A DNA stretch of 64,000 bases, from NCBI RefSeq assembly GCF_000423825.1, contig NZ_AUIS01000008.1, forward strand, positions 1 to 64,000. Direction: 5' to 3'. The notes beneath the pieces are model-generated. The model searched no databases, was not told the origin of the DNA, and saw only the letters and a list, made by a program, of their open reading frames with translations. The position numbers and the translations under genes are program-made. Shown here in pieces: positions 55,238 to 57,508 of the stretch (position 1 is the first letter of the stretch; each line of letters begins with the position of its first letter). The DNA comes from Thermithiobacillus tepidarius DSM 3134. Lineage in GTDB: Bacteria; Pseudomonadota; Gammaproteobacteria; Acidithiobacillales; Thermithiobacillaceae.

Positions 55238-56760
55238 ATGCGGACATTGCAGAAGCTCTTCGCATCATCGCTGCTGCTGCGGCTGGGGGCGGGCCTGGGC
55301 GCTGTCGTCCTGCTGACCGTGCTCGGCATCGGCAGCGCCGCCATCCTGGCCAATACCCTGCCCGGTTCCACGGCCCAATGGGTGCGCGGGATCCTCGGCG
55401 CCGCGCTCTTCCTCACCCTGGCCGCCGTGGCGGTGACCCTGTACCACCTGCACACCGAACTGCTCGCTCCCCTGCGCGAACTGCTGCGCTGCGCAACCGC
55501 CTTCCGCCGGGGCGAGCTCGCCGCCCGCACCGCCTACGTGGGCGCCGACGAGTTGGGCCAGCTCGGCAGGGCCTTCAACGGCATGGCGGAAGACCTGGTC
55601 CGGCTGCAGGCCGAACAGGCGGCCCGCGTGGCTGCCAAGACAGCCGACCTGGAGCGCAGCAACCGCGCGCTGAATCTGCTGTACCAGTCCATCGCGCGGG
55701 TCTACAACGGCCCCCTGGCGCGCGAGACCTACCTGATCATGCTCAAGGATCTGGAAAACGGGCTCGGCGCGGAGCGCGGGATTGCCTGTCTGGTCGACGA
55801 GGACCGGGCGCGGGCCCGGGTGCTGGCCTCCACTCTGCGCCGCGAAGCGGATCCCGATTTCTGCCGCTTGAGCGGCTGCGCCGAATGCCTGCGCCGCCGC
55901 GGCGTGCACACGCGCCGGCTCGGCGGCCGGCGCGTGCTGGCTGTTCCCCTGCAGGATGCGCAGCGTCAACACGGCTTGCTGCAACTGCTGTTGCCAGAGC
56001 GCTGGGAAAGCGCCCCCTGGCAGAAACAGCTGCTCGACGCCCTATCCCGCCACTGCGGCGCGGCCATCGGCACCGCACGCCACCAGGAACAGCACCGTCG
56101 CCTGTCGCTGCTGGAGGAGCGCAGTGCCATCGCCCGCGAGCTGCACGACTCCGTCGCCCAGTCCCTGGCCTATATGCGCATCCAGGTGGCCCGCCTCGAA
56201 TCCGCCGTGCGGGAAGCGCCGAAGCAGCCGGCTGCCGACGGCGCCCTGGCGGAGCTCGGCACGGAGCTCGACACCGCCTGCCGCCAACTGCGCGGTCTCC
56301 TGTCCACCTTCCGCCTGAAAATCGAGGGCGGGCTCGGCCCGGCGCTCGAACAAACCGTGCGGGAGTTCGGCGGGCGCGGCAATCTCCCCATCACGCTGGA
56401 CGTGCGGCTGGCCGGCGAGCAGCTCTCGCCCAATGAGGAGATCCACCTGCTGCAGGTGCTGCGCGAGGCCCTGGCCAACGTCGTTCACCACGCCCGCGCC
56501 AGCCGGGCGCAGGTCACCGTGCATGGCGCTCCGGACGGCACGGTCGTGGCCACGGTCGAGGACGACGGCATCGGCATCCGGGCGGCGCCGGCGGCGCATC
56601 ATTACGGTCTGGCGATCATGCAGGAACGGGCGCGCAGCCTGCACGGCACGCTCGCGGTGGAGCCCCGCCGCCCCGCCGCCCCGCCGGCACCCGGGTCACC
56701 CTGGCCTTCACGCCCGCCGGCCGCTGCACGCCGCGCACCGCGAGCGGGAGTCCACGTTGA
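55238..56760 (+). CDS. narX: NarX-type nitrate-responsive histidine kinase, frame broken near the C-terminus
   Basis: This membrane kinase of about 504 residues has two helices (about 15-38 and 51-70), HAMP, a central region with C209, C214 and C217 (CRLSGCAEC), the HisKA_3 box with H303 (IARELHDSVAQS) and an HATPase domain. The loop between the helices is only about 12 residues, so the periplasmic nitrate-binding domain of NarX/NarQ is missing. Three tandem octamers at 56663-56686 shift the frame; deleting one gives the expected end GTRVTLAFTPA and a TGA at 56758 that overlaps the narL ATG. As sequenced, the frame runs on to 57448 through narL. Confidence 0.85.
56663..56686 (+). repeat. narX: Triplicated octamer CCCCGCCG causing a narX frameshift
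   Basis: Three exact tandem copies of CCCCGCCG. Eight bases per copy change the reading frame; two copies give the family-typical kinase C-terminus, three do not. This could be a slippage mutation, a phase-variable switch or an assembly error. Confidence 0.9.
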
Positions 56761-57434
56761 TGCCTCGGCGCCGCTCAGTGCTCGTCATCGACGATCACCC
56801 CCTGTTCCGCAAGGGCGTGGTGCAGCTTCTGCAATCCCGGGACGACTACGAGGTCGCGGGCGAAGCGCCCTCCGGCGCCGAAGGCATCGACTTGGCCCGG
56901 CGGCTGCGGCCCGATTGCATCCTACTGGACCTCAACCTCAAGGACATGAGCGGCATCGACGTGCTGAAATCGCTCAAGGCACACGATGCCGGCGCCTGCG
57001 TGCTCATGTTGACCGTCTCGGACGCGGCGGAGGACCTGGTCGACGCCCTGCGCGGCGGCGCCGATGGCTACCTGCTCAAGGACGCGGATCCGCAGGAACT
57101 GCTGTCGGGCCTGCACGCCGCCGCCCAGGGGCGCGTGGCCGTCAGCAGTCTCCTCACCGGCATCCTGGCCCAGGCCCTGCGCGGGGACGCCCTGCCCAGG
57201 ACACCCGCGGAAGCCGGCCTCACCGCGCAGGAGCGCGCCATCCTCGAACACGTTGCAGATGGGCAGAGCAACAAGGTGATCGCCCGGGAACTGGGCATCA
57301 GCGAGGGCACGGTCAAGGTGCATGTGAAGCACCTGCTGAAAAAACTCCGGCTGCGCTCGCGGGTGGAGGCGGCCGTCTGGGCCGTGGAGCACGGCTACCG
57401 GCCAAATCCCACGCACAACGGCAGTCGCCGGTGA
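56760..57434 (+). CDS. narL: NarL-type response regulator
   Basis: This 224-residue regulator has a receiver domain with D57 (PDCILLDLNL) and the conserved lysine in YLLKDAD, and a LuxR-type helix-turn-helix (LTAQERAILEHVADGQSNKVIARELGISEGTVKVHVKHLL). The sequence is close to NarL/NarP. The ATG at 56760 overlaps the TGA that ends narX in the restored frame (TGATG). Its stop codon lies in the first unit of a heptamer repeat. It probably binds the palindrome at 55094. Confidence 0.93.
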   Translation: MPRRRSVLVIDDHPLFRKGVVQLLQSRDDYEVAGEAPSGAEGIDLARRLRPDCILLDLNLKDMSGIDVLKSLKAHDAGACVLMLTVSDAAEDLVDALRGGADGYLLKDADPQELLSGLHAAAQGRVAVSSLLTGILAQALRGDALPRTPAEAGLTAQERAILEHVADGQSNKVIARELGISEGTVKVHVKHLLKKLRLRSRVEAAVWAVEHGYRPNPTHNGSRR

Positions 57435-57508
57435 TTGGTGATTGGTGATTGGTGATTGGTGATTGGTGATTGGTGATTGGTGATTGGTGATTGGTGATTG
57501 GTGATTGG
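57430..57508 (+). repeat. Heptamer tandem repeat (GGTGATT) downstream of narL
   Basis: Eleven perfect copies of GGTGATT plus two bases run from 57430 to 57508. The first copy includes the narL stop codon. The unit length makes copy-number variation likely; it does not change the narL product because the stop is in the first unit. Confidence 0.95.

Follow-up and report, generated by a model that had tools for sequence, protein, structure and literature searches.

Frameshift and mutation hotspots at three tandem copies of a short unit are known from lacI (PMC3485313) and, with GCTGGC as the unit, from mutL (PMC2955026). In lacI of E. coli and P. putida three exact CTGG units lie within the gene, acquiring or losing a single unit changes the frame, which inactivates the protein, and in the P. 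putida study this tract gave the largest fraction of lacI mutations (PMC3485313). In mutL of Salmonella and E. coli the three units are coding and fall within an ATPase, and a change in their number inactivates the protein (PMC2955026). The gene described here, narX of Thermithiobacillus tepidarius DSM 3134, found in a window of 64,000 nucleotides (the whole stretch of DNA that was analysed, hereafter the 64-kb window), likewise carries three exact coding units, one more or less of which shifts the frame. Its unit is 8 bp long as opposed to 4 bp in lacI and 6 bp in mutL, where a change in copy number stays in frame, and three units are the wild-type state of lacI and the functional state of mutL, whereas in narX they appear to be the broken one; also unlike narX, the lacI hotspot was measured and the conversion of mutL was studied experimentally. 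The NarX kinase and MutL are members of the same GHKL superfamily (see also PMC8199190).

NarX-type kinases show the order TM1, TM2, HAMP, central region, HisKA_3 and HATPase, and their genes lie upstream of narL and adjoin narK/narG (PMC8199190). The NarX of the window shares both the domain order and the gene neighborhood but differs from these kinases in being devoid of the periplasmic P-box domain and in having the last strand of the ATPase domain out of frame.

The three tandem CCCCGCCG units are located at positions 56663–56686 of the plus strand, on which all the window features given below also lie, and are exact repeats, as the original prediction had stated, with one of them being the putative insertion; the perfect period-8 run spans 25 bp (56662–56686). 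This is the only period-8 array with at least three units in the 64-kb window, and none appeared when 64 kb was simulated 60 times with an order-5 Markov model. Two-unit octamers, by comparison, are expected by chance about 2.6 times per 64 kb and were observed twice, so it is the third CCCCGCCG copy that needs explanation. The two-unit CCCCGCCG word was not found a second time in the 2.96-Mb genome, nor was any further period-8 array found in the 464 kb of the genome sampled (400 kb of which was taken as stretches and 441 kb called coding).

With three units, narX is translated without a stop as a 736-aa frame (55238–57448), the final ~260 residues of which are out of frame, and passes through the whole of narL up to the stop at 57446–57448. 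The long open frame itself is no evidence of anything, as out-of-frame ORFs are common in the GC-rich DNA of this region. When two units are read, the product ends with VEPRRPAGTRVTLAFTPAGRCTPRTASGSPR followed by a TGA (56758–56760) overlapping the narL ATG at 56760 (TGATG). The displaced C-terminal coding stretch, GTRVTLAFTPAGRCTPRTASGSPR with its stop (56686–56760), would thus belong to the NarX frame only in the two-unit state, which is consistent with the alignment of relatives, the profile scores and the codon-usage switch at 56681 described below. Both the reading through narL and the recovery of the expected HATPase end with the overlapping TGA upon removal of one unit had been predicted, and translation and, for the latter, comparison with relatives bear them out. 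A point absent from the original prediction is that one or four units lead to a truncated NarX fused in frame to NarL; the outcome therefore differs among one, two and three units, as in a contingency locus, with four units giving the same frame as one.

The downstream gene narL (56760–57434) codes for an intact NarL-type response regulator with full-length Response_reg and GerE Pfam domains, its start overlapping the two-unit narX stop, and the sequence GGGAG (56746–56750), 9 nt 5′ of the ATG, is its possible ribosome-binding site. Directly 3′ of narL, repeat analysis revealed a perfect heptamer array of GGTGATT x11.3 (57430–57508), which stops all three forward frames and supplies the stops of both narL, whose TGA lies in the first unit, and the long narX frame. 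Among 183 other genomes of the class, two carry three-unit GGTGATT arrays. Other heptamer arrays are present on contig C6 (stretches L156 and L158), namely GTGATTC at 70519–70604 with 10 N inside, CGTCTCA x3.1 at 75060–75081 and ACTCAGC x9.6 at 118130–118196, and no period-7 arrays were found in 320 kb of contig C43.

For comparison, 67 loci with NarX relatives were gathered from genome contigs, and relatives were also taken from genomes within the order and the class. Counted from HHYGL to the last residue of GTRV, 63 of the 65 kinases bearing HHYGL have a spacing of exactly 31 residues and the other two, both Burkholderia-type sequences, one of 30; a few of these distances were read by eye, where the pattern missed GS/GTE variants or picked an earlier GT, and a few loci represent one organism fetched twice. 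The NarX of the window shows the 31-residue spacing only with two units, and with three units no GT motif is present at the expected position. The two-unit reading aligns without gaps through GTRVTLAFTPAG with 35 relatives, and its tail keeps the family consensus GTRVTLxFxPAG, indicating that the tail was coding until recently. The closest three relatives (L034, L035 and L089) are 53–54% identical over residues 49–475 of the window NarX, read EPRxxGGTRVxLxFVPA at this place and have a narX stop adjoining the narL start. No relative above ~50% identity was found in the order (31 genomes) or the class (370 sampled), and the search for a second, intact narX copy elsewhere in the genome found none. 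The comparison with relatives proposed in the original prediction thus yielded no octamer repeat at the equivalent DNA site and a constant spacing that fits two units.

A profile built from the relatives alone scores the two-unit protein at 294.2 bits, while one, three and four units reach 274.5, 271.7 and 272.1 bits, respectively. A frame tracer based on codon usage, which was trained on the window and takes no account of homology, abandons the narX frame at 56680, is in the two-unit frame from 56681 to 56723 and then moves into narL. The summed log-odds of the tail are −17.6 for the three-unit frame, −0.7 for the two-unit frame and −0.1 for the third frame; these sums discard the long frame without by themselves singling out the two-unit one, and as the latter two values are both near neutral, the two-unit frame is picked by the path of the tracer instead. 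Outside the tail narX is open and its codon-position GC resembles that of narL, while the 23-codon tail is too short a stretch for codon-position GC to decide its frame. Relatives, profile scores and codon statistics all lend strong support to the view that two units represent the ancestral state and three the frameshifted one.

According to Pfam, the kinase preceding the repeat possesses HAMP (PF00672, 55460–55600), a HisKA_3 dimerisation and phosphoacceptor domain with an intact H-box (PF07730, 56117–56314) and a HATPase_c domain with intact N-, D- and G-boxes (PF02518, 56435–56659), and together with narL downstream this is the composition of the NarX/NarQ family. In the three-unit frame the HATPase_c match ends before the last strand, at position 93–95 of the 111 positions of the profile, whereas the alignments of the solved relatives VraS and DesK continue through GT and the last strand; the complete end GTxVxLxF is absent from the three-unit frame and present only with two units.

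The family's P-box sensor (AINxAGSLRMQSYR) was not found in the NarX of the window, a loss that is new here and was missed in the original prediction. Hydropathy, alignment of relatives and Pfam show TM1 (about residues 13–37) and TM2 (about residues 49–66) separated by a loop of only ~10 residues (55274–55435), with no periplasmic nitrate-binding P-box domain, whereas relatives hold ~110–130 extra residues between TM1 and TM2, including the P-box AINxAGSLR. The PilJ domain, the NarX sensor in Pfam, is matched in L089, is not matched in the window NarX and was not found in the whole genome, with the E. coli control being positive. By pattern, N-x-A-G-x-x-R is present in 46 of the 55 kinases examined; several of those without it are full length, and in these the P-box probably just diverges from the searched pattern, while others are cut at a contig end or come from an ORF whose length cannot accommodate the domain. 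In a published survey the P-box was reported as extremely well conserved, although the proteins were picked by their P-box domain, so sensor-less forms fall outside that survey (PMC8199190). The sensor deletion in the window narX is clean and in frame, and the gene may have long lived as a sensor-less kinase or may be on its way out. In L134, a single-contig genome of the class, narX carries a frameshift as well, located between the HAMP region and the core of the kinase.

The original prediction had placed phase variation, a fixed mutation and an assembly artefact side by side as equals. All three are kept here, with a slippage mutation favoured over the others on account of the gain of exactly one unit, the small number of frameshifts, the lack of another octamer array, the relatives without the repeat and the position at the 3′ end. 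Within the window, the shift in narX is the sole same-strand frame change on the tracer's path that deprives a real gene of a stop close by. Across the 464 kb, the tracer flagged five frame switches, two of which remain after reading: narX and a gene for an hsdM-like N6-adenine methylase, in which the frame breaks at the NPPF motif (L141:8338, i.e. C43:28338). The switches at C43:111849 and C6:140745 were rejected by eye as ordinary gene boundaries, and the one at C43:276333 as a continuing frame. That the third unit is a sequencing or assembly artefact, the organism having two units and an intact NarX C-terminus, is unlikely in our estimation. The scarcity of gene-breaking shifts, with no other in the window and about two in the 441 kb called coding, speaks against it, as does the fact that the 24-bp array is far below the common short-read length and could be spanned; a gain of precisely one repeat unit is the hallmark of in vivo slippage, even if polymerase slippage during library PCR would look alike. 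On the other hand, the draft carries N runs, one of them within a heptamer array, contains a run of 25 G at C6:65575–65599 (L156:1575–1599) that could be a hypermutable tract or else an artefact of sequencing, and has the other frameshift in the hsdM-like gene; besides, errors explained 28 of 73 re-sequenced interrupted genes in M. smegmatis (PMC1852416). Phase variation by slippage, with two units giving coupled NarX and NarL, three switching NarX off and one or four rarely producing the fusion, seems distinctly unlikely to us, and the evidence for an evolved switch is weak. The perfect array does just reach the most permissive octamer threshold applied to H. influenzae, three units (PMC2651432), three 6-bp copies in mutL were reported as a switch (PMC2955026), copy number sets the frame outcome, and the tail is intact as expected of a gene often in frame. 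However, typical contingency loci have many units rather than three, the array lies at the 3′ end of narX, the repeat is not retained among relatives, the 464 kb sampled hold no second period-8 array, and the kinase is in any case without a sensor. Our literature search for phase-variable NarX or octamers in kinases found nothing relevant. We would regard as highly improbable a three-state narXL switch with two units coupled, three giving a dead NarX with uncoupled narL and one or four a NarX–NarL fusion, in which the sensor-less NarX would answer to a signal from the cytoplasm instead of the periplasm. Ribosomal −1 slippage in the C-runs, which would restore the frame and give a NarX with a loop three residues longer, is the hardest to credit and can be considered extremely unlikely: the shift needed is indeed −1 and the array contains a CCC codon after a C, where one tRNA could re-pair, but no X-XXY-YYZ heptamer in phase is present, the fold is no more stable than that of shuffled sequences (z = 1.0 with DNA parameters), DNA folding at the repeat found no special hairpin, and the repeat is not conserved among relatives.

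It is thus probable that the third unit is a real and recent 8-bp slippage duplication which inactivates the narX kinase in a decaying or repurposed system. A two-unit repeat may have arisen by chance within a GC-rich codon stretch and been extended to three units by replication slippage, a tandem duplication suggested by the perfect structure of the array. The frameshift would then fall just 5′ of the last β-strand and the GT motif of the ATPase domain, and the sequenced allele would produce a kinase that lacks the final strand and ends in ~260 junk residues. Judging from the sequence, kinase function would be lost and the translation or output of narL altered, for the TGATG coupling to narL would be lost with three units, NarL itself being intact and GGGAG possibly still permitting its separate initiation. 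The allele could revert at the rates of repeat hotspots, and nothing shows that the three-unit allele has been selected as a switch. The presence of two lesions in one gene favours decay of nitrate sensing over a switch, and the nitrate-sensing system hit by the frameshift is most likely decaying or repurposed. Two points count against the slippage mutation: apart from the loss of the sensor and the shift narX looks undecayed, and the frameshift in the hsdM-like gene implies either that sequence errors occur or that decay is wider.

Should the third unit prove real, automatic annotation of the genome will list a nitrate-responsive NarXL system even though the kinase is probably dead and sensor-less, and the reading of how the narK/narG cluster is regulated changes. 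If it does switch, a respiratory two-component system would be subject to phase variation, which would be unusual.
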